Notes under the pieces: model-generated
Told to the model about the DNA's origin: nothing
The model's input: the letters and a program-made list of their open reading frames with translations, nothing else
The model's database searches: none
Shown: one piece after another, positions 3,606 through 59,881 of the stretch
Position numbering within the stretch: position 1 is the stretch's first letter
Layout of the letters: each line of letters begins with the position of its first letter
Assembly: GCA_014925825.1 (NCBI GenBank)
Contig: JACGCK010000017.1
Coordinates: 434,001-498,000 of the forward strand
DNA length: 64,000 bases
DNA from: Pholiota molesta
Lineage: Eukaryota; Basidiomycota; Agaricomycetes; Agaricales; Strophariaceae
Direction of reading: 5' to 3'
Program-made: the position numbers and the translations under genes

Positions 3606-4946
3606 ATACAGGATTAAAATAAAAAGTAACGAGCGGAAAGATTAAGTGAAAGATAGAAATCAAAACAGAATTAAAGGAGTGTGAAGGGATGTATCTCGCC
3701 TGTAGCGGTGCCACTGACCGTCAAGCTGGGCGATGGATTGGGAGGAAGGAGGTTGGGGTGGCAGCTACGTGACTGTCAATGTATTTGGACGCGAAAAGTC
3801 AGAACAGCGCTCTTATGACGACGCCGGCGCTGAGTGGCACGAGAGACAAAAAGCCACCAAGGTTCATGTTCATGAATGGCCTTGAACGGCCCACCACGCC
3901 TTTCAACAATTGATCGCGGCCCTCGAAGAATTCCGATGTCCTACCCCACCTCCGTTAGCCTGTCCAGCTATACTTGGATTCCTTCGGTGTTCGGGATGCC
4001 GAGGCCCTGACTCTGCTGTGGGCTTTCCAGATGTTAGATTTGAAACATAAAGTTTTGAGCTGGGATAAGTGGAATATTTCTCTCCATGTTTGAAGAGTAT
4101 TTGTGAAGACGTTGTGGATCTCCCAGTGGGCAGGTCGGGACTCGGGGTATGTGGGTTTCCAACTTCCGAGGAGACGACATTTGGCCCATGTGGCCATCAA
4201 TGATTGGTGTTGTTTGCCTTGGGCCTTAGGCCGCTGATTGCCCTTCCGAGTTCGGCCGTTGACTTCCTCTTCCTGCACCGTGACATCTATTGTGTCTCTC
4301 CAACCAAAGAAAATCGTTCCTTGGTTAACTTCATATCCGAAGTCCAACTGCAGGCCACAATTACCATATCCCATGAAATGGTCTATGTCGTCGCTGTTGG
4401 TTAGCTTCTGTGGGCTCTATGACTTGGCGTAACAGCCTGAGGCTGGACCATCCTGCGCTTCGAACTCTTCTACGTATCTACTTCAAGTCTTCGCTGCAAA
4501 CATTGCTTTATCTGCATGAAGCATGTCAAACAAAAAACATTGAATCTAGGCTGGTCTCAATAAATTTCATCTCCAACAGAAACATCCAACATCGGTGTTC
4601 AGGCTACGCATTGTTTTTTCTCTCGTTTCTGTATTTCTTTGATTTCATATTCTCAATCCCGTCGCTATGGGATGAATTGATCTAGGTGGAAAAAGCTCTC
4701 AAGAATGAATTGTTCTTATAAGAACCCTATGGTCATCCAAGAAGTTCACTGAGATAGAGATATAGTACACGCCGTCTCGCTACACAAGCATAAATCTGAG
4801 GACTCGAGGACGTCTTGCCGCAGACCTTTCGATTTCCTCGGGCACCTTCTGTCAGCGTCAAGGCCTGAAACTTGAAGGGGCAGAAAAGGCATGGCGCATC
4901 ATCAATTTAATCTAGGTGACCCCCAAACAGCTCTTGGACAATGTTT
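3606..4946. other. intergenic, no gene supported
   Basis: About 1.3 kb. A 139-codon frame on the minus strand (3955-4374) has ordinary composition but no recognisable motif or splice partner, so it is not called. Confidence 0.5.
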
Positions 4947-6017
4947 CTACGCATGCGCGCCTGTCATAATATTTCTATGATAATTGTCGTCGTCTCGACG
5001 GACCATACCTTCTCGTAGGACGACGATTGCTATGTCATCATTGGCCATTGTCTTCTTTTCTTCTTCTGCCTTGCATCGTGTTTTTGACGATCTGGTGTCT
5101 TTTCCCTTCACTCTTTGGTTCTTCATTTCATCCTCAAACCCTTCTGTTGTTTTGGAGATGGCGTATGCCAGCACGAGCGTTACTTCGAAACGCATCGCCA
5201 CGAAGATCAGCATCGTACACATTGTAGGTACCACTATGATTATGAAAAGTGGGACTACAAAGAACGCGCGCGATGCTTCAGAAAAGTATGAACGCTCGTT
5301 CTGCCAGTGCGACTCCCTCCCTCCATGAGTACAAGCCATGCTTTTCTGCCGCGCACCACGGGCACCCACTCAAGAGTCAAGTGACGTCTCTGTACGTACA
5401 CAAGGCCACCAACTACGGAACTTACCCCGAGTCAGCAGCTAGGGCATCGGAAACAAACTGTACGAGTACTGGACACGCGCGGATGACCATCATTACGAAG
5501 CCTCGCCATGCTTTAGCCTCAGCAGCTGAGGCATCAGCGAATACGTACAAGCCTGGAGCACCACATCACCCCCATTTCCTCCCCGCTTCAACGAGTTCGG
5601 CTGGAGCAAACGCCAGCAGAATGGCAAGCAATCCTTCTTACCTTAACAGTGACCGGCACTACCGCTATCAACGCACGATCGGTGCTACATCCATGTATGG
5701 TGCTTTAGAACCTACAGCCACAATAATGATCGCTGTTCAAGAGTCTATTGTAAGTTATTCCCTCTACTAGTGATTGATGCTCATTATCGATTTTTTGGAC
5801 TGTCGTAACCTGTGACCTGTCAGCAGCCAGAGGGGCGTCTAAGGCGAGGTACCACAGGATCGAGCAAGAGATAGCGGCTAGTACCGCCACTGCTGTTGCA
5901 CCCACTGCCACTGCGACCGCCAGCGATGTCAGTGAAACCAGAGAGTTCTAGAAGAACCTTCCCGCAGCTCTTCAAGGTCAGAGACTCGGAAGCTCGCAGT
6001 TGCCGCTTACCGCTCAT
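4947..6017 (-). other. possible membrane-protein gene or remnant, exon structure unresolved
   Basis: On the minus strand this region holds several hydrophobic stretches that could be transmembrane helices: around 5280-5180 (FFVVPLFIIIVVPTM, then a second hydrophobic run), around 5480-5440 (GFVMMVIRACPVLVQF) and around 5940-5850 (SLAVAVAVGATAVAVLAAI). Good donor sites follow some of them, for example GTAAGT near 5425. I could not join these pieces into one open frame without a stop (an in-frame TGA falls near 5570). It is either a multi-exon membrane protein I could not solve or a decayed gene. The opposite-strand frame 5249-5770 is Ala/Ser/Thr-rich and is probably its shadow. Confidence 0.25.
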
Positions 6018-8146: not shown

Positions 8147-8868
8147 CTATGTAACATCATCATGCCAAGGAATATCATGGGCAATGCGAAATTCATCCCA
8201 TTCCTGCCATTTCTCATTCATCATCTCGTACGCAGGGACCCAATCCACGCACGTATGCGTCGCTCCGATCCTTTTCGTGGTGAAATTCCGTGTCGTAAAA
8301 TCCCCCGGCTCGAGGGTGGCGTCCGCTGCACAGAGCGTCCACTGGCGGAGATAATTATAGCAGTGCAGGATGTGCGCCTGGCGCGCGTGGCTGAACGTCG
8401 TCCAGCCCTGCGCGATGGTGGTGCGGATCCAGCGCAGGCAGTGCAGCTCGTGGAACATCGCGACGGCGAACATGCGCTCCTCCTCCCCGATGCGGACGTG
8501 GCCGTCGCCGTTGCTCGCGGTCCACAGCCATTCCGCTTCTGATTCGGGCGCGACTAGGTCGTAGTGGACGCTCTCTTGGACTGTCATTTTGACGAGTCTC
8601 TCTTCGATGGGAAGCCGTATTGGATGGTCGTCGCCAATGAAAGCTAATAAGACGATTGTTTCAGAAAGCGCCCGCGCTGAATAAACGGAAGGATCTCACA
8701 GTACGAGTCAATCGGGCGCACGGCTGGACTTCTCCTTTGCTGCAATTGGAGGAGCTTCTTCAAATCCTTCGAAAGCGTCATAAGAGACCAGGTCAAATAC
8801 AGTGAACTTGTCGCCAGTAGCAGCAATGAGAATAGTTGAGCCTTTTCCCGTACTCCTTTGCGCTGCAT
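8147..8868 (-). CDS. UstYa-type oxidase (DUF3328), copy A
   Basis: Two exons, complement(8147..8643, 8700..8868), encode 221 residues. The intron (GTGAGA..TTAG) rebuilds the family's start-of-domain motif SYSFIGDDHPI. Residues 10-30 form a single signal-anchor helix. The two diagnostic metal-binding motifs are intact: HELHC (121-125) and HILHC (147-151), the latter followed by YLRQ and C161. UstYa proteins install oxidative crosslinks or hydroxylations, best known in fungal RiPPs (ustiloxin, asperipin) and cyclochlorotine. The start at 8868 gives the short cytosolic tail normal for the family; an upstream in-frame start would add 36 residues. It lies about 7 kb from a repeat-bearing secreted peptide gene and about 12 kb from a second UstYa gene, suggesting a biosynthetic locus. 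Confidence 0.9.
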
Positions 8869-10656: not shown

Positions 10657-11904
10657 ACCTTTGTCTTCAGGTTTAGAAATCAGCAGTGATAGATCTAGAG
10701 TGCAAGTGAGAGTAGAGGCCTCGTATCCACCCGGATTCCATACTCTCACAGCTAGTCATTGTAACTTCGATAATTTTAGAGAGTGCAAGACATGATCCTT
10801 TTACTGTATGTTTCAAGTAGATATCTTTGCGTACGTACATAATCAGGTCTTCAATCAACAGGATGCCTGAAGCCCTGTGTTTGAACATTCGATGCCAAAT
10901 CGAGGAGTTCTCAGGCTGTTGGACATGTTAGTGAAAAATATCGCCTGAGCGCTTAAGCAATCGATTGAATTCCGAACCTGCAAGGAGGAAATCGGCGAAT
11001 GAATATCGCAGTCCAAGTCCCATAGATCCTGAGGCCTTAGGCCTGAGGCTTTGAATTAATGTAAATCAAAATGACGAGTGCTGATGTTTACTGGGTGAAT
11101 ATTTTATCAGTCCACCATCGATGCGTGGGCACTGATGCAGAATTCAGATGGATCCATAAATTGGCTGTATGTATGTCACAAGTGTGTCCTCATTCATAAA
11201 CGCATATAACACTGTTCTCTCCTTTGATATATTCTCTCTCACACTTAATTATCCGTATCCGCCGTCAGTGATCTTTCGTACCAAGCTTCTTGAAATTCTC
11301 AACATTAATTCAGAAATATACCACGTCCAACTTCAAGTTCTAAAACAATTGTTCTTTATGCGTGTAGTAAGAAGATCCCAATAAGGTGCACATGGACGAG
11401 AAGTCCGCCTACAAGTAGACATTCTGCTTGTGTTCAAAAATAACCCGCAGTCACACATCGCCGATAGATGCATTGATACATTACAAGGCAACATGCAGAA
11501 ATTTTCACACTGACAATTTGAATCTTTGCGTTGAATAGAATTATATGGATGTTTAACTTGTCCCATGTTGCTCCCTTGGATAAAATCCCTTTACAGCGCT
11601 GACGGTGCCTTGGGCGGCAAGCGCGGCCGGGAGCGCCAAAAACGAGTTCGGGCATCAGTCCAACATCAGTCAAAGCAGGGCCAAACAGAAATGCTGTGGA
11701 TGAAACTGCAGAATCCTCAATCCTGTGGATGCGGTGTGCAAAACAATATCATGTAAGTCACTGTAATGTGCTATTAAAAGTGAATCCCTCATCACTTCGT
11801 CAATAATGAAGCGCCGAGCACGTTCCCAGACTTCATAAAGCGCATGCGTCACGGCTTGCTTAACTTATCTCCTCCTCCTTTCACTCCTTCATATCGTAGC
11901 ATTG
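10657..11904. other. intergenic, no gene supported
   Basis: About 1.25 kb between the two acetyltransferase genes, AT-rich. The minus-strand frames here and over 10375-10749 overlap the last exon of the first copy and show no family resemblance. Confidence 0.5.
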
Positions 11905-13641: not shown

Positions 13642-14672
13642 ATGAATCAAGAGCATGACGACTCCGAATCATTAGAGCTACTTGGCGATGAAGAATTTGA
13701 CGATAGACGCGGTGAGTGTCACTCCTCAGATTCCTCGAAGAGAGCAGGGAAGTCATGGATTGGCCATAGAGCGTTCAAGTTCGTTCAAGCGGAGCGCCCT
13801 GTTCCCCAACCCATCTACGGTCCTGTCAATGGTCTTAGTGCTCTTTTTCTTACTTGATATTATTGCTTTTATTTTCATCGGAAAACTACTTCTTGACGCC
13901 AGCCAATCGATTGAAGGCGTTGAAAACATGGAATTTCGGAATCCGTACATTGGCCTTGACGAACTATACGGGTCCCAAAGGATCAACGTCTCTCGCTACG
14001 CTGCTCTTGTCAACGAACCACGTTTAGCAGTGCAAATTAGCCCAGCGCATCCCGACAAGGTCTTTCCCTTCGATGTACACCGATGGCTCAGTGACTTTGG
14101 TCTTCTATCTCCTCCAGACAGACATTTGCAAGTATCAAGTAAAAGCGAAGTACGCACAACTCAATTTAATCCTGATTTGTCTCTGAACGGTGTACAACTA
14201 TTTTAATCTCTAGATCCACACAGTTGTCCAGTTTAGCGTTTTGGATTATGGAATGGAAAACTGCGCCCTGGCAATACGCCTTCCGCTCCGCGGAGATACT
14301 CTTCCACATCCATTTTTACTTCCCAGTATGTTGGATACGGTACCCCTTCAAATCTGTGAAGTAGACGCAAAGAGGCCTTTGAAAGAGAGGCTTATTTCTT
14401 GGTCAACTCGTCCTACGTGTCTTCGCCTCTTGGGCGTCGTGGAAGCAAGGATAGGCGAAGAGACTGAAACGGAGCGTTTTTTCTGTAAATCTGGTTCATT
14501 TTTAGGATATCAGATCTCCTGCGCCGAGAATTCCCCACAATGCGAAATTGACGTGTGGACTAACCAGAACAAAACATGGGGTGAGCTCGTGTTCCGGTTG
14601 TTCGCTTCAATGGAAGCTCTGACACATGTCTTTATAGGAATCTTCATCAAGCAATATCAGTCCATACTCTGA
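13642..14672 (+). CDS. single-helix membrane protein of the agaricomycete 'NPYIGLDELY' family (But2-like C terminus)
   Basis: Four exons, 13642..13711, 13770..14149, 14214..14580 and 14638..14672, encode 283 residues. A short acidic cytosolic N terminus (about 40 residues) precedes one transmembrane helix at about 41-63. The outer part carries the family hallmarks FRNPYIGLDELYGS, VFPFDVHRWLSDFG, VVQFSVLDYGMENCALAI, a cysteine pair region (CKSG..CAEN) and the terminal IFIKQYQSIL, which is only recovered after removing the last intron. N-glycosylation sequons (NVS, NKT) lie in the outer part. Homologues are numerous in Agaricomycetes and are commonly annotated as But2 C-terminal domain proteins; function is not established. 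Confidence 0.8.
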
Positions 14673-16002: not shown

Positions 16003-16318
16003 TCAAGAGGATTCTGCAAGGGACCGCAGCCATGCGGTATCAACAGGATCCCTCTCAGGAAGAGAACGAAGCCAGGCAGTGTCTACTGGATCCGCCTCTG
16101 AAAGAGAACGAAGCCAAGCAGTGTCGATGTGGTCCCGCTCTGGAAGAGAGCGGAGCCAGGCAGTGTCGACTGGGGCATTGACTGGGGTATCTGCGAAAGC
16201 GTCAGAACAGATCGGTCCAAGATAGATATACCATACCTGGGGTGACCACAGTGACCGGTATCGCAGCAACGGAGACGATACTGCCGATGCTGAGGATAAT
16301 GTAAAGAGCTTTGACCAT
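16003..16318 (-). CDS. secreted repeat-bearing peptide precursor, candidate UstYa-type RiPP precursor
   Basis: Two exons, complement(16003..16190, 16237..16318), encode 89 residues across a 46-base intron (GTATGG..CGCAG). Residues 1-20 form a clear signal peptide (MVKALYIILSIGSIVSVAA). After a spacer, the octapeptide DTAWLRSL occurs four times at residues 36-43, 50-57, 64-71 and 78-85, a strict 14-residue period. The spacers between copies vary (PERDHI, SEADPV, PERDPV) and the last copy ends AESS. The octapeptide is invariant while its codons differ between copies, so selection acts on the peptide. There is no KR or KK Kex2 site, unlike known dikaritin precursors. Two UstYa genes lie within 8 kb. 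I do not recognise this peptide. Confidence 0.85.
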
Positions 16319-16374: not shown

Positions 16375-18470
16375 TCCAAATCGAACATAGCTTGAACGAA
16401 GCCACGCGATCAGGTTCTCCTTCTGGTATTCCTGTCATGAGTCAGAGCCCTTCGGGTTTAATTGTTTTACCAAATAGACTTGCACGTAGGCTTAAACCGT
16501 GATGCGAGGTCAATAATATTTTTCTGCCTTGCGGATGCCGTATGTATGTTTATGATATATTCCACTTTCAATGTCGCAAACGTCGATTGCTCGGCCACAT
16601 TCTCTTGTACATCCTTTACAATATGTGAGATCTTTTATTTAATTTGCGCTGCGGAATTGTAAATGATAATCATTGCAAAAGGTCAGATTGATTCACGCCA
16701 ACGCTGGTTGCGGCTTTCGTCGGTGACTTGAAGTGACTCACGTTCTCAAGTCCTAGCTGACATGTCGAAGTTTATTAAGCCGCCAAAACAGCGAAAAACA
16801 AAACAGCCAGCACAAAACGTTGCTGCTTTAATCTCACTGCAAGTTCTGTGTTCAATTTTTTGAAACTATTTTACGCATTGACAGCCGCTTGCTGCAAAAC
16901 ACACAGATGGGATACATTTTCAGTGACTGTAAGGTCTTATTTTTACTCTAAAAGTTGATATATATTCTAATATTTTTGGCTTACCTCTCTGCGTGGACGT
17001 AGATAGAATGGGAGAGGGACTCCTTTCTAAGAGTGTTTACGTTGTCACTTGGCATCAAGTTCGGTGAAGTAGGTCCATGAAATGAAATCTATCTTTGAAT
17101 AAAACTGCCAGTTCAGAACGGTTGCCAAGCATTCATTAATTTACGGAGGCAGCATAATTACATTACACCCTCTCTTTCTTTAGATGTTCGATTGTTTCCA
17201 AGAAAAGACCCTTTAAAACAGGTAGGTTTAGGATAATTCTTGCAAAACTCTTGGCTAATTCCAGGGTAATTCTTGGTAATTCGCTGGTAATTCGCTCGCG
17301 TGAATTTTGGTGAGCTGCTGTCTAATTTGGTGCCGTCTATTTATAAGTTAATTCATCCATGCTATTCTCACGTGCGCCATCAAGCGCATCAGGCTTGGCT
17401 AAAAGAGGCGCGCACCGCGGCACCGCGTCGTTAGCGAGACGTCACCTTGTAGTTTCTTATTCCAACTCTTGTGCAAGGCAGAAACGGTTTATCAAATAAG
17501 CAGTCTGCTTCCAACTCCTCATGCAAAAGAACTATTTTGAAGATTGCTAGTTTGACCTGCAGTTTTTTTTCAAGAGGGAAAGAAATCTCCAACCCTCTAC
17601 CACCATCGATGGAGATTTTAAAGGCGCGATTTAATGAGCAGAAAATAGCAAGCAAAGAGATTGGTTACATAGAGCCCACGGCCGAGGTAGTGAAGGAGCA
17701 TAGGGTCTTATTTACAAGTTCTCAGCTGCTTGTCTGTGTTTGCTATATATTGAAGTCAACAAGATTAGCGCAGTACCCTTCATCTTGTCCATTTTACTCT
17801 CAGGACAAGACAGCCTGTTTTTCACGCTGTGTCGGAGCGCTGGTACTAGGCTTTAAGCGTTAACTATAGAAATAATGTATCTATTTTGCTCCTCGGAGGC
17901 GCTATTTTAAATTCAACCCACCACCTACCTATCTAATGTTACTAGTTACCGTGTTTAGTTGGTGTTTAATGAGAATCTCACGACAAGGATTCGACATTCA
18001 TCCGGCTTAAGCTACTTATCGGTATTGCCCAAGGTTCTCCGCAGCATCCACTTCGTAGCCATGGCACCCGATGTACCAAATAAACGCCGTTTGATATTTA
18101 ATTTGTCTGTTTTTGAGGAAATTCAGACAGATTATCTCTACTGGGTGCTTCATCCTACAAAAATATAGTATACCACTCGGGCGTCGTAATTTTAAGCGCT
18201 CAGACATAATATAACTTAGGCATCATATATGTATTCCAGCCTTCTAGGCATATATGAAGTGGAAATTTAGGCTGCAGAAATTATCATGGAGAATTTCTGG
18301 ACCTAATCCGTAGTTTCAATTTTCGTTTTCGAAAAACTCATAATTGACTCCAGAACAAACGATACACCGGTACTAAACAATCATATTTATAACTTAAGGA
18401 GGAGAGCTGCATTAATCGTCCATTGTTATCTAAGTACTAGTAGGAGAGATGTGCCACCATTTTGAATCAA
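16375..18470. other. AT-rich intergenic region, no gene supported
   Basis: About 2.1 kb, the longest gene-poor stretch in the window. Frames at 16462-16662, 17471-17863 and 17959-18168 lack motifs and splice context. A short tandem run of GGTAATTC-like units lies at 17264-17295. No transposase, reverse transcriptase or terminal repeats could be recognised. Confidence 0.45.
17264..17295. repeat. short tandem repeat, about 11-base unit
   Basis: Three imperfect copies of a unit containing GGTAATTC (GGGTAATTCTT, GGTAATTCGCT, GGTAATTCGCT). Confidence 0.6.
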
Positions 18471-19688
18471 TCACGACGAACCAAGGCTTTTAGTGCTACC
18501 GTTCCACTTCTCAGTGGCGGAATCACCGAGAGTCGCGGTTCCATGGCTATATCCACCATGACTCTGCAGCTCAATACCTGAAGCGTGGACAACTGGCCGT
18601 CCATTGATGAATTCGACGTTGCTCTGGGCTTGAGTGATAACTTCTCGTCCCCAAGCACGGCCAGTGACAACGCGAAGAACGATCAACTGAGGGGCCAAGC
18701 ACTATGAGGTAGGCCTGTGAGTACCATGCACAGAAATTGAAAATTGACGAAGGGACATACAGCGATCTTAGCCCAGACTTGGCCAAATGAGATAGCTATG
18801 GGGTTACCCATAGCGTAGGGGATCAAAAACATGATTCCGAACACGCTGTAAGGAGCAGCCGACTCGACGAGCATAGATGCAACGCTGGTGTACATCCTGG
18901 CGCTGTCTCGGCCAAGGGCCCTTGAAACGGCTTTCCCGAGCTTGAGAAGCCGGCTCACAATAAGAACGGTTGTGATAATATTGAGAGAGATGGTGATCGT
19001 GTAGTATGGGGTGCCAAAGTTGATCGACTTTCCGTGGAAGAAGTCCCCGCCTGGCTTGCCAGCGATAACAAGTTCGATGATAGCCAGAGCTTTAAATCGT
19101 GATTAGATTCAATAAGATTCAAAAATATCATGGGTGACTTACAAAGTGCAACGAGGTATGCAAGGACTGGGAAGGCTATTACGATCCATCTTGATCCATA
19201 TATGACATAGAGGCGGTAGAGCTTTTTAAATGATGAGCGTTAAAAAAACTTGGACAAATATAGGCGCCTACCAGTAAGGCGTCACCCATGAAAATCATGA
19301 TCACAACGGCGGCAGAGCCCATAGTTTGATACCATGCAGCGGTCTGAGTAGCAATGAAGCCCGGAACACCGCCTGGCCCGTTGCGCCCTTCGATCCACAT
19401 CAGCTCGCCCCATACCGCGTTGACAGAGACATCGACAGTGATGAGCAGCAGGAGGATAGTGCTATATATGGCGAAGAACCTCCGGCTTTTGGGAGAATTA
19501 TGATTGTTTTTTCGTAATAGACCCTGCAACGTCAGAAAATACATGATGAGGTTTATCCCTACAAGGGCAATCAGCATACCGATCTAAGTATAATGTACAG
19601 CCCAAACACCAGACGTACCGTAGAGGATACCGCTCATGTAGCTTCCAATGTAGAAAGAATGTTCGAACTGGGAAAGTGCGTCCGCCAT
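18471..19688 (-). CDS. orphan seven-transmembrane protein
   Basis: Five exons, complement(18471..18701, 18761..19089, 19143..19221, 19272..19558, 19619..19688), encode 331 residues. Hydrophobic segments appear in the order expected for seven helices, with landmarks LIMYFLTLQGLL (TM1), FFAIYSTILLLLITVDV (TM2), VVIMIFMGDALLLYRLYVIY (TM3 and the conserved LYR.YVIY loop), WIVIAFPVLAYLVAL (TM4), YTITISLNIITTVLIVSR (TM5), GIMFLIPYAMG (TM6) and IACLAPQLIVLRVVTGRAW (TM7 and its cytosolic edge). This is a large agaricomycete family of receptor-like membrane proteins without known ligand. The C-terminal tail is polar and Ser/Thr-rich. It is transcribed in the same direction as the repeat-peptide gene, about 2.2 kb upstream of it. 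Confidence 0.85.
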
Positions 19689-20295: not shown

Positions 20296-20986
20296 ATGTC
20301 CACATCCTCGAAGCAGCGCTATACACTATCTTTCGCTGGTATAAGCTTAGTGTTCGTGGGCTTGAGTCTCTTGGTCAAGCTTGCGGGATCAATATGGATC
20401 CATAAACAGATCGCCCATTTGACAAGGGAATACAGTGAGTAGCATCGTCGTCGGTAACTTGCAGACATTCTGCCATTTCTGAGCCTCATTCCCTTTGCTT
20501 GCGGGGTCCTGCTTCTCAGGCTACGTAGGAAACGACTATCCTGAAGAATGGCCCATCGAACGGAAATCTGTCCTGATGACGTTCGACAATCCCAAGCACT
20601 TTCGCTTGGACACTGAAGATGGAGCCGCCGAGTGGGCCGCCATCGCACCTCAAAACGGGGTCGTGCACCTCGGACCACACCGACAGCCATTCACCGTCGC
20701 CATAATGCACCAACTCAAATGTCTCGACATCCTCCGCCAAGAGATGATGCAGGATCGCAGCGAACACGAGCAGCCCTCTGTGCTTGCCCGCCACTGTCTA
20801 AACTACGTGCGCCAAATGGTCATGTGTCACGGCGATTTGGAGCTCGAATCGTTTCAATTTGCCTCCCACAAGAACCCAATAGACTGGCACGGGGTGTATG
20901 AATGCAAGGACTGGGAAGCAGTGTTCAACGAGGTGCAGCGGAATCAAGCAGAGCATGGGAAGTGGCTGGAAACCCACGCAACGTAA
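20296..20986 (+). CDS. UstYa-type oxidase (DUF3328), copy B with degenerate motifs
   Basis: Two exons, 20296..20434 and 20520..20986, encode 201 residues. The 85-base intron (GTGAGT..CTCAG) restores the family motif YSYVGNDYPEEWP. Residues 10-32 form a signal-anchor helix. The first metal motif reads HQLKC (110-114): the second His of HxxHC is Lys. The second reads LARHC (135-139): its first His is missing, though HCLNYVRQ and the following cysteine are kept. A loss of two ligands is unusual and could mean altered or lost redox activity or a partner role. An in-frame ATG at 20239 would add 19 residues; 20296 gives the usual short tail. Confidence 0.88.
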
Positions 20987-56745: not shown

Positions 56746-57268
56746 CAGACCAGCCGTTGTCGTCGTCAAAAGTTGGAGTGAGTTGCGATCATTTGCCGCT
56801 TGCGGCTGTCTCTCTCGACGCCAAGCATTGACCCGCCAGCTCACGTGGTATCGATCATGATCTAATGATCGCTCGAACCTGACATCGAAGCAACAGCCTC
56901 AGGCTGCAACCACAACTCTTACCGAACTCCTACCAAACGTCGAGGCACTCTGACCGGGAACTCGTCATGCTGAGTCACTTGTGCATTTCTGAGTGAATAT
57001 AGCAATGTCATTACGACGCGCGTATTTACTGTCAAAATCTCATGCACGCACGACTTGATATCATCACAATATCATCAATGCTATGACTCGATACCGCCTC
57101 CGATGTTGCCATCATAAAACTCTTTGAACGACTCCAATACGATTATGGTTCAACTAAAACTTCCTATATAAACGCCATAAACGGACCTCTCGATTGCACT
57201 ACTCTACACTATCCTCGCTCCAAAAGCAGCACAAGGACACAACATATCAACCAACCAACAACCAACTT
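56746..57268. promoter_or_regulatory. divergent promoter region with a TATA box
   Basis: About 520 bases between divergent genes. A TATATAAA element at 57165-57172 sits about 100 bases before the ATG of the RNA-repair gene, placing transcription start near 57195-57200. Confidence 0.55.
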
Positions 57269-59881
57269 ATGGATGTCACTTTCCAGAAATATGGAGGCGC
57301 TCTCGCTCTCGTCGGACCAGCTGTGGACAGCTTCGCCCATACCGCTTTGAACTCTAACGATTTCCCAAACCAAAATGTTGTGCCTCTCACCTCAGGGTAC
57401 CACATCACCATTGCCACGAAAGACGAGCTACGAAGCCTTACGCCGGAACAACACCTCCAAGTCAAGTCCATCCGACCCGACACACGATATATATTCTCAG
57501 CGGGACTTGGAGGAAAACCACACGCCGGAGCCTACTGGGTCGTCATCATCTGGGCTGCAGGGCAGCAGATTCGGAAACAGCTCGGGCTGCCTCCCAAACA
57601 TTTCCACATCACACTCTCCGCCGCCGATGTACACGACGTGGACAAAGGCATCGAGTCTCTTCTACTCGAGGAGCAGCTTCCCTCGACTCATAGTGTCGAA
57701 TTCCTGGACCATACCGCCTTCACCTTGTATTTTTTTGGGCAGCATGAAATTGCTCTGAATTATTGCTCCCGACTTATTCTTCTGGATTCCACGTCCTACA
57801 AAGGGTTTCTGAGAATCGCAGACATCTGGCTGATCAAGGATCAGGTCAAGTTAGCTATGCTGGCCTATGCCTGTGCGTATCAGCGCACGGCAGACGACAA
57901 ACTCAAGAAATACTGCTTGAAGAAGCTCGTTGAATGCTCAAAGGGAACAGAATGGGGTGCCGTCTTTCAGGAGCACGAGATGACGCAGATCGACGAATTC
58001 AAAATCATTTCATCTTTTTTGCTACTCCTATGGTCTGCCGACCTAAAAGAGGCGCTCAGCGATCTGAAACTAGCGCCTTCTTTGCTTTTAGAATCACGAC
58101 AATCACTATACATCCCTTCGCCTTTGAGATCGCCTGATACGTACAAGCTCCCCCGATTTTTCCGTTGGATCGTCCCATTTCACCTAGCGGTAATGTCGAC
58201 GCCGCGTAATGAAGATGATATCACAGCGCTTTCTGCTCCGTATCTCGGTATACGACATGTATTAACGCTCACAGAAGAGACACCATTACCCGCGTCTTGG
58301 TTCAGCAACAAGGCGATCACCAACACCTTCCTTCCCATCCCCAACTTCCATCCGCCGTCGATCGAACAGATGGATCTCATCATAAAACTAGTCGGCGACT
58401 CGAAGAAACGTCCGCTTCTCGTCCACTGCGGAGGTGGCAAAGGACGCGCAGGGACGGTGATCGCGTGCTATCTAGCAGCATTCGGATTCCAAAAACCGAT
58501 CGCAGACCAAGACCACCCAGAAATGCCCGCTGTTGAGGCTATATCAACGCTGCGCTCTCTTCGGCCTGGGAGCTTAGAAACCTCTCAGCAAGAGGCCTTC
58601 GTTTCGAAGTGGTGCAGCACAATCTGGAAGCGCCAATCAGTCTATCCCGAAGTGCAGTCGGAGCCTCCGCCGTGCCCGATGGAGGTCGAAGGCAAGCTGA
58701 CGCGGGACTACGATTTGGTGATGCTCGTCGGCCTTCCGGGATCTGGCAAATCGTGGTTTTCAAATTCCCTTCTCGCGCGCGAGCCGGCGAAATGGCTCCG
58801 CATCTCGCAGGACGACTCCGGCAGCAGGGACGCATGCGAGACGGAGATCAGCCGCGCTCCCAAGGGCAAGCGCGTTCTCCTGGACCGCTGCAATACGTCC
58901 GTCGCCGACCGGAAGCTCTGGATGCAGCTGGCGTCCAACTGGTGCGCGTCCCCGATCTGCGTGTGGTTCGACTATGACAGGGAGCTTTGTACGTCGCGGG
59001 CGCAGATGCGCGCCGGCCATCCGACGCTGCCGCCGGGGAGTCGCGTGCGCAATGCGGTGGAGCAGATGCAGAAGATCTTCGTAAGGCCGGCGCTTGGGGA
59101 GGGGTTCAAGGCCATTGTTGTCGTGCGTTCGATTGCGGCTGCTCAAGAGGCTATTCTGCGGCTTTCGGCCCCATTGACGATGTACAAGTTTCCGCGGACG
59201 CCCCATCTGATTGATGTTGGTGCAGCGACTTCCGACGATGTTCATGTCGACATTTCTTCATTGGCTGATATACGCGGCCACGTCATCATCACCGAGAAAA
59301 TCGACGGCGCGAATATGGGCTTTTCACTCTCTTCGGATCGTTCTCGCATTCTAGTCCAAAACAGGTCACACTACGTTAACTCCTCTACTCATGAACAGTT
59401 CAAAAAGCTTGGATTGTGGGTCGAACGACACGAGGAAGAGCTGCGGAATATCCTTGACCGCGATCCTTACTTCCCCGAACGCTACATCTTGTACGGTGAA
59501 TGGATGTTCGCGACGCATTCCATTCCTTACGCGGAACTCCCGGACTACTTCATAGCCTACGAGATCTTCGACCGATCGACGCAATCCTGGGCGGACACGA
59601 AGGCTTTGCATGCCCTTTTGAGGGATACGACGATAGCCTCGGTCCCTGTTCTTCATGAAGGGAGCATGCCCGCAGAGGCAGCGCTGTTGGAAATGATTCA
59701 GAAACAATCGCAGTTCTACAATGGACGAGTGGAGGGTATCTATGTGAAGGTAGAGGTGAATGGCCAGATTAAATCTCGCGGAAAGGTTGTCAGGAGTGAT
59801 TTCATTGCTGGAAACGAGCATTGGACACGAGGAGGTATTCGGGTGAATACTTTGCGCTTAAGTGCTGAATCAGATCCCTAG
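57269..59881 (+). CDS. multidomain RNA-repair enzyme: 2H-like, TPR-like, phosphatase, kinase, RNA ligase
   Basis: Single exon, 870 residues. The first ATG is at 57269; the open frame before it has no ATG and lies around the likely transcription start. Domains in order: a 2H phosphoesterase-like region with two HIT motifs (H45 in GYHITIA, H113 in FHITLS); helical TPR-like repeats (about 140-235); a dual-specificity phosphatase (about 285-455) with the CX5R loop HCGGGKGRAGT (C387, R393); a P-loop polynucleotide-kinase-like domain (about 480-625) with GLPGSGKS (488-495) and LLDRCNT; and an Rnl2-type RNA ligase (about 640-870) with EKIDG (nucleotidyl Lys677), YGEWMF, EGIYVK (822-827) and KSRGK (835-839). 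Together these could trim, phosphorylate and seal broken RNA ends. No targeting signal is seen. Confidence 0.9.
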   Translation: MDVTFQKYGGALALVGPAVDSFAHTALNSNDFPNQNVVPLTSGYHITIATKDELRSLTPEQHLQVKSIRPDTRYIFSAGLGGKPHAGAYWVVIIWAAGQQIRKQLGLPPKHFHITLSAADVHDVDKGIESLLLEEQLPSTHSVEFLDHTAFTLYFFGQHEIALNYCSRLILLDSTSYKGFLRIADIWLIKDQVKLAMLAYACAYQRTADDKLKKYCLKKLVECSKGTEWGAVFQEHEMTQIDEFKIISSFLLLLWSADLKEALSDLKLAPSLLLESRQSLYIPSPLRSPDTYKLPRFFRWIVPFHLAVMSTPRNEDDITALSAPYLGIRHVLTLTEETPLPASWFSNKAITNTFLPIPNFHPPSIEQMDLIIKLVGDSKKRPLLVHCGGGKGRAGTVIACYLAAFGFQKPIADQDHPEMPAVEAISTLRSLRPGSLETSQQEAFVSKWCSTIWKRQSVYPEVQSEPPPCPMEVEGKLTRDYDLVMLVGLPGSGKSWFSNSLLAREPAKWLRISQDDSGSRDACETEISRAPKGKRVLLDRCNTSVADRKLWMQLASNWCASPICVWFDYDRELCTSRAQMRAGHPTLPPGSRVRNAVEQMQKIFVRPALGEGFKAIVVVRSIAAAQEAILRLSAPLTMYKFPRTPHLIDVGAATSDDVHVDISSLADIRGHVIITEKIDGANMGFSLSSDRSRILVQNRSHYVNSSTHEQFKKLGLWVERHEEELRNILDRDPYFPERYILYGEWMFATHSIPYAELPDYFIAYEIFDRSTQSWADTKALHALLRDTTIASVPVLHEGSMPAEAALLEMIQKQSQFYNGRVEGIYVKVEVNGQIKSRGKVVRSDFIAGNEHWTRGGIRVNTLRLSAESDP

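Follow-up and report, generated by a model that had tools for sequence, protein, structure and literature searches.

A likely new repeat precursor, linked to UstYa genes and lacking dibasic sites, in the mushroom Pholiota molesta

Within the 64,000-nucleotide stretch of Pholiota molesta DNA that we analyzed (hereafter, the window), a minus-strand gene at positions 16318-16003 is predicted to encode a short precursor protein in which the octapeptide DTAWLRSL is repeated four times, and this gene lies between two genes of the DUF3328/UstYa family. The gene is real, and its frame is very likely translated, because the changes among octapeptide copies are silent only and the octapeptides are kept in a second haplotype. 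We regard the precursor as a likely new variant of UstYa-linked repeat precursor, a real gene with predicted chemistry. A preliminary description of the window had proposed a candidate RiPP precursor; this proposal is supported in part: the protein is of secreted type, contains repeat cores under selection, lacks dibasic sites and is encoded between two UstYa genes, but a RiPP identity is putative and the precursor is not a plain dikaritin.

The precursor gene has two exons, with the ATG at 16318 and the stop codon within exon 2. Based on the splice listing and hydropathy, exon 1 (16237..16318, minus strand) encodes a predicted signal peptide (MVKALYIILSIGSIVSVAAIPVTVVTP). The predicted intron (16191..16236, minus strand; 46 bases) reads GTATGG...CTGAC...CGCAG, in which CTGAC is a branch-like site, and exon 2 (16003..16190, minus strand) encodes the DTAWLRSL unit four times, with a period of 14 residues, and ends with the stop. 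The predicted spliced precursor is 89 residues long (MVKALYIILSIGSIVSVAAIPVTVVTPDTPVNAPVDTAWLRSLPERDHIDTAWLRSLSEADPVDTAWLRSLPERDPVDTAWLRSLAESS). A script listed five possible splices for this gene, and the four DTAWLRSL repeats are present in all five. Two alternative acceptors, both in frame and downstream of the chosen one, give introns of 55 and 67 bases; an alternative donor, GTCAAA, gives a 79-base intron and a 78 aa product from which the signal peptide is lost, and another, GTCTCC, gives a 40-base intron and a 91 aa product. Of the five options, the splice with the 46-base intron has the most usual signals. Without splicing, exon 1 runs into a stop, and the frame of exon 2 has no ATG between the prior stop and the repeats, so only a spliced frame connects an ATG to the repeats. 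The two-exon, 89-residue product with a 46-base intron given in the preliminary description was reproduced as a predicted splice, and the intron has the same length in the second haplotype.

The signal peptide was judged from the sequence and its hydropathy, which peaks at 2.54 over 12 residues starting at residue 14, and secretion is likewise a prediction. The sole tyrosine of the precursor (residue 6) falls within the predicted signal peptide. Adjacent K/R pairs are absent from the precursor in both haplotypes, which bears out the earlier statement that it contains no KR or KK. As a short secreted-type protein (secretion predicted) with at least three similar repeats, the precursor resembles the KEX2-processed repeat proteins (KEPs) in overall form.

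The four copies of DTAWLRSL start at residues 36, 50, 64, and 78, a period of exactly 14 residues, as first described. A glutamate two residues past the octapeptide is also constant (codons GAG, GAG, GAG, and GAA), and the junctions between units read PERD, SEAD (SEVD in the second haplotype), and PERD. At the DNA level, TRF reported a 42-base unit with 3.8 copies and 77% matches. An 8-residue word repeated four times at fixed spacing was found once in the real window and in none of 40 first-order Markov windows; the repeat is therefore beyond chance.

Among the octapeptide copies, at least nine changes are needed (a minimum count), and all nine are at third positions, with none at first or second positions. 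Pairwise comparison of the copies gave 24 synonymous versus 0 nonsynonymous differences, whereas the first three spacers gave 10.5 synonymous versus 10.5 nonsynonymous differences; the earlier observations that the octapeptide is constant despite differing codons and that the spacers vary in their residues were both confirmed. In a neutral simulation, an all-silent outcome arose in 6 of 200,000 trials with eight random substitutions and in 0 of 200,000 with ten. The pS between octapeptide copies is 0.615, compared with 0.070 between the two haplotypes of the gene; by this measure the copies are old, and recent duplication therefore does not account for the identity of the octapeptides. These codon patterns make it very likely that the octapeptide is under purifying selection, and the comparison within the gene argues against its free drift.

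In the assembly (65.6 Mb, 625 contigs), a second contig (C33) carries the locus again in collinear form, with 96% DNA identity in the gene region. Because the collinear match extends over ~20 kb at ~95%, this copy is probably the other haplotype and not a duplication. Its gene is also 316 bases long; the frame, intron length, and splice signals are kept, and all four octapeptides are unchanged. There are eight codon differences between the haplotypes, four synonymous and four nonsynonymous, and the latter comprise three in the signal-peptide region plus A60V in a spacer. Within the second haplotype, the octapeptides differ by at least eight changes, all at third positions (pairwise, 22 synonymous versus 0 nonsynonymous), and the first three spacers show 10.5 synonymous and 11.5 nonsynonymous differences. 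When the genome was searched with the whole precursor, and again with the N-terminal part alone, the two haplotypes were recovered and no further paralogue. The frames of both UstYa genes are open in both haplotypes. When identity between the haplotypes was calculated in 250-base bins, most were at 88% or more; however, the haplotypes diverge sharply at 11501-11750 and 17251-17750, with many gap columns and 59-69% identity per bin, pointing to insertions or deletions between the two UstYa genes.

The precursor gene sits 7.1 kb from the first of these genes and 4.0 kb from the second. The first, UstYa1 (8147..8868, minus strand; intron 8699-8644), encodes a DUF3328/UstYa protein of 221 aa, and its main exon scored 58.6 bits against PF11807 (cut-off 25). 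UstYa1 carries an N-terminal hydrophobic helix and the HxxHC motif twice (HELHC and HILHC). The second, UstYa2 (20296..20986, plus strand; intron 20435-20519), encodes a DUF3328/UstYa protein of 201 aa whose motifs are degenerate (HQLKC and LARHC), and its main exon scored 67 bits against the same profile (cut-off 25). A 49-base alternative exists for the UstYa2 intron; the 85-base option agrees with relatives.

Two other genes between UstYa1 and UstYa2 are predicted to encode membrane proteins; they are neighbors by position, with no implication of cluster membership. The gene at 13688..14672 (plus strand, two exons), between UstYa1 and the precursor gene, is predicted to encode a membrane protein with one span, which shows weak similarity to a But2-like domain (PF09792; 20.4 bits, under the cut-off of 24.2), and, as in UstYa proteins, one N-terminal hydrophobic stretch is followed by a larger domain. 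For the gene at 19179..19688 (minus strand), the predicted product is a membrane protein with several spans that matches no Pfam family; the model is partial, and more exons are likely, to ~18686. Beyond UstYa2 lies a siroheme-synthase-type gene, to which a tetrapyrrole methylase match belongs. Among the best candidates scored for tyrosinase (PF00264), none of the 26 matches listed is on this contig (C79) or on the allelic contig, and the peptidases or methyltransferases that one would expect in a cluster of this type were not recognized among the ORFs scanned, which comprised part of the ORFs and small exons in the window. Elsewhere in the window, a single frame of 907 residues (57158-59878, plus strand) contains, in order, a 2H phosphoesterase, a DSP-PTPase-type "Swiss Army Knife" domain, an AAA kinase, and an RNA ligase; such an order seems unusual in a fungal RNA-repair protein.

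We also searched the 65.6-Mb assembly with the UstYa profile; this search identified at least 11 exon-level matches on five contigs, two of which are the haplotypes of the locus. In three other UstYa-bearing stretches of 10 kb (on C94, C135, and C168), no 4-residue word occurs three times at spacings of 6-45, and these stretches have no blastn match to one another. Because these three stretches lack peptide repeats, UstYa genes in this genome need no repeat precursor nearby. The C135 stretch contains a second, divergently transcribed UstYa pair (4469-5973 of the stretch) with the same pattern of one canonical and one degenerate member (HQLHC/HVNHC and HQFKC/LTHHC).

A protein search with UstYa2 gave 53 matches; those in Pholiota conissans, Flammula alnicola, Galerina marginata, and Psilocybe cyanescens are 75-78% identical to it, and no relatives of UstYa2 were found in a viral contig collection. 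A joint query of UstYa1 and the precursor gave 38 matches, all of them UstYa proteins, with the top match, from Pholiota conissans, at 89% identity. Sixteen UstYa1 rows come from a species that is also represented among the UstYa2 rows; in 12 of these, the two relatives are on one contig, a call that is a strong inference from equal size of the source contigs. Seven of the 12 shared contigs are <200 kb; sharing one of the others, which reach 3.8 Mb, is no proof of closeness. The remaining four rows comprise Coprinopsis cinerea and Amanita muscaria, for which different strains or assemblies are compared, and Agrocybe pediades D9613 and Steccherinum ochraceum, in which the relatives are on different contigs. 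Where locus tags look ordered, they are close in Leucocoprinus (g1828/g1831) and Panaeolus cyanescens (006878/006880), and the tags of the Psilocybe cyanescens pair (009604/009618) differ by 14. Of two UstYa2 relatives in Panaeolus cyanescens, the one linked to the UstYa1 relative has the lower identity (55%, P0023), and the closer one (73%, P0011) is on another contig. Judging by this linkage, the UstYa pair looks old. The preliminary description had suggested a homology search for paired UstYa and repeat-peptide genes; such a search recovered the UstYa pair, linked in other agarics, but no homologue of the precursor.

The difference in motifs between the two UstYa proteins extends to their relatives. 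Among the UstYa1 matches, motif 1 is H..HC in all 38, and motif 2 is H..HC in 34 of 35 readable rows; the UstYa1 relatives also have invariant cysteines (C123, C149, C159, and C186 in the numbering of P0054). A structure prediction for P0054, the Pholiota relative of UstYa1, is confident (53 rows, mean pLDDT 87.1) and shows a long N-terminal helix. Among the UstYa2 matches, motif 1 is H..KC or H..RC, and the first histidine of motif 2 is missing, each in 51 of 51 readable rows. CctR is a DUF3328 hydroxylase whose two HxxHC motifs build a dicopper site within a disulfide-linked homodimer; it is a membrane protein with the copper site facing the lumen, and alanine mutants of the conserved histidines and cysteines lost activity (PMC12435403). 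UstYa1 shares with CctR the double HxxHC and the N-terminal hydrophobic helix; however, the CctR homodimer acts on a non-ribosomal peptide, whereas the genes described here are one canonical and one degenerate, with a putative substrate (PMC12435403). Because the HxxHC residues are needed in CctR, UstYa2 is predicted by analogy to be inactive alone or of altered chemistry.

UstYa-dependent precursors such as those of ustiloxin, asperipin, and phomopsin are secreted, contain repeated cores, and are cut at KR sites. The Pholiota precursor is similar to the dikaritins (ustiloxin, phomopsin, asperipin-2a, and victorin; Ascomycota) in its predicted signal peptide, repeated cores, and nearby UstYa/DUF3328 genes, but it comes from a mushroom, it has no dibasic sites and no core tyrosine, and its contig has no tyrosinase match. 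Tyrosine is the cross-link site in ustiloxin, phomopsin, and asperipin. Victorin uses Phe and Leu (PMC9233826), and a clustered tyrosinase is described for several, not all, dikaritins (PMC12048977). Because two usual marks are missing (dibasic sites and a core tyrosine), the precursor is dikaritin-like in design but is not filed as a dikaritin.

With the KEPs of Agaricomycetes (PMC9769878, PMC7329392, PMC6339444), the precursor shares a short secreted-type protein, peptide repeats that contain Trp, and, in part, XP (STE13-like) dipeptides before the core. It differs in lacking the dibasic sites (KR/RR/KK) that define KEPs (PMC9769878), and screens that require such sites would consequently pass over it. 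In one survey, Y is enriched in DUF3328-linked KEPs (65.6% versus 38.2% for others), and W is present in 20.5% of the repeat sequences of DUF3328-linked KEPs versus 24.5% for others (PMC7329392). The same survey describes a W-containing KEP type, P-3, with seven proteins in five genera, including Galerina, Psilocybe, and Coprinellus, and four of the seven have DUF3328 nearby (PMC7329392). Trp cores beside UstYa genes thus have some precedent without being the rule.

A search of the protein database with the 89-residue query, which covers proteins of ~49-156 residues, gave no match at E≤1 among 1,622 candidates; for longer precursors (~171-542 residues), the joint query gave UstYa proteins only, with scoring applied to the 7,998 candidates that had the most words in common with it. 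Either short spliced genes of this kind are absent from annotations, or the precursor is not the conserved substrate of the pair. The titles and text passages that our literature search covered describe no mushroom repeat precursor that is linked to UstYa genes and lacks dibasic sites; the text passages likewise yielded no proven mushroom UstYa product, and a search with Coprinopsis locus tags found no paper.

Our best explanation, to which we give about an even chance, is that the gene encodes a secreted multi-core precursor from which DTAWLRSL units are released in the secretory pathway and oxidized by the flanking UstYa pair. The precursor would enter the secretory pathway and meet the UstYa proteins in the lumen, as expected from the studied relative CctR, a membrane-bound enzyme whose copper site faces the lumen. 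Since the repeats lack tyrosine, the predicted chemistry concerns the Trp-containing core, which would either lose two hydrogens by oxidation (a cross-link) or be hydroxylated. For these two oxidations, shifts of -2.016 and +15.995 apply to the computed MH+ values, which are 961.510 for DTAWLRSL, 1442.775 for VDTAWLRSLPER, 1654.855 for DPVDTAWLRSLPER, 1613.792 for DHIDTAWLRSLSEA, and 1646.802 for DPVDTAWLRSLAESS. Catalysis would fall to UstYa1, with its full copper motif, whereas UstYa2 would be a partner that is non-catalytic or altered, and the two proteins may form a heterodimer; we place UstYa2 in this role because its relatives lack two of the four copper histidines in all readable cases. 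Both the action of the UstYa proteins on the precursor and the release of the cores are steps that we infer. Core release is the weakest of them, with no cutting rule that suits all junctions: at two of the three junctions, the chain might be cut behind the one arginine of PER and DP then taken off by an STE13-type activity, or another protease might act. STE13 removes XP dipeptides, and two of the three units after the first start with DP. Arg-Asp is at two of the three unit boundaries, so cleavage behind single arginines would leave some units joined; the core also has an arginine of its own. In a study that expressed C. cinerea precursors (KEPs) in yeast, several products were apparently cut after single arginines (PMC9769878). 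Against this explanation, the database searches that found relatives of the UstYa pair gave no precursor homologue, and the pair may serve another substrate.

The main rival holds that the products are linear peptides, unmodified or minimally trimmed, that act as KEP-like or alpha-pheromone-type signals beside UstYa genes that are old, non-acting neighbors. We judge it improbable, though by no means negligible. The KEP peptides of C. cinerea, L. edodes, and Pleurotus are described as linear and minimally modified (PMC9769878), and in the survey, 103 of 1680 basidiomycete KEPs, and no more, have a DUF3328 gene nearby (PMC7329392); the searches also gave UstYa-pair relatives where they gave no precursor homologue, and the arginine at two of three junctions, together with the XP dipeptide (DP) that opens two of the three following units, would suit linear peptides as well. 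However, KEPs are defined by dibasic sites, of which this precursor has none, and of the few UstYa genes that the profile found in the genome, two bracket it. It is less probable again that the protein remains intact as an uncut secreted repeat protein whose four units work jointly as amphipathic helices, perhaps on a surface or in the role of a multivalent ligand. Helices are predicted in the exon 2 product (residues 10-14, 24-33, 35-47, and 49-60), and no consistent protease site lies between all units; on the other hand, this structure prediction, made from a single sequence, is weak (mean pLDDT 63.6, pTM 0.38), and the spacers vary while the octapeptide is fixed, as expected of separate cores.

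Two further possibilities concern what kind of gene this is, if any. A non-coding tandem repeat, or a frame on the plus strand, would be consistent with the 42-base array, which is real, and with the repeated words that the plus strand also has; however, all of the octapeptide changes fall at third positions of the minus-strand frame, and neither haplotype has lost the frame, the length, or the splice signals. We reject this possibility on the third-position pattern and consider it very improbable. The predicted multi-span membrane protein gene at ~18.7-19.7 kb could suggest a basidiomycete mating-pheromone precursor beside its receptor, yet the exons and the partial model of that neighbor match no Pfam family, pheromone receptors included. 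The precursor has no cysteine, and its C-terminus is AESS, without a CaaX box; a lipopeptide mating pheromone was rejected on these grounds, and we give this possibility the least credence of all.

UstYa genes can be numerous in mushrooms, with 16 reported for Pleurotus (PMC8893723), and the survey that found DUF3328 genes near so few KEPs asks whether cyclization hardly occurs in basidiomycetes (PMC7329392). A broader proposal, which we offer tentatively and regard as doubtful, is that mushrooms have an old linked UstYa pair, one member with a full and the other, though conserved, with a half-lost dicopper site, which acts as a heterodimer to oxidize Trp-containing multi-core precursors without dibasic sites, a class of mushroom ribosomal peptides that surveys requiring Kex2 sites would have missed. 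The locus also lets a partnership between a catalytic and a degenerate DUF3328 protein be tested, a question that the CctR study does not address in the sections consulted (PMC12435403). For the family in mushrooms, the locus offers one concrete candidate for a UstYa substrate that is invisible to Kex2-site searches, together with a reason why it would be missed.
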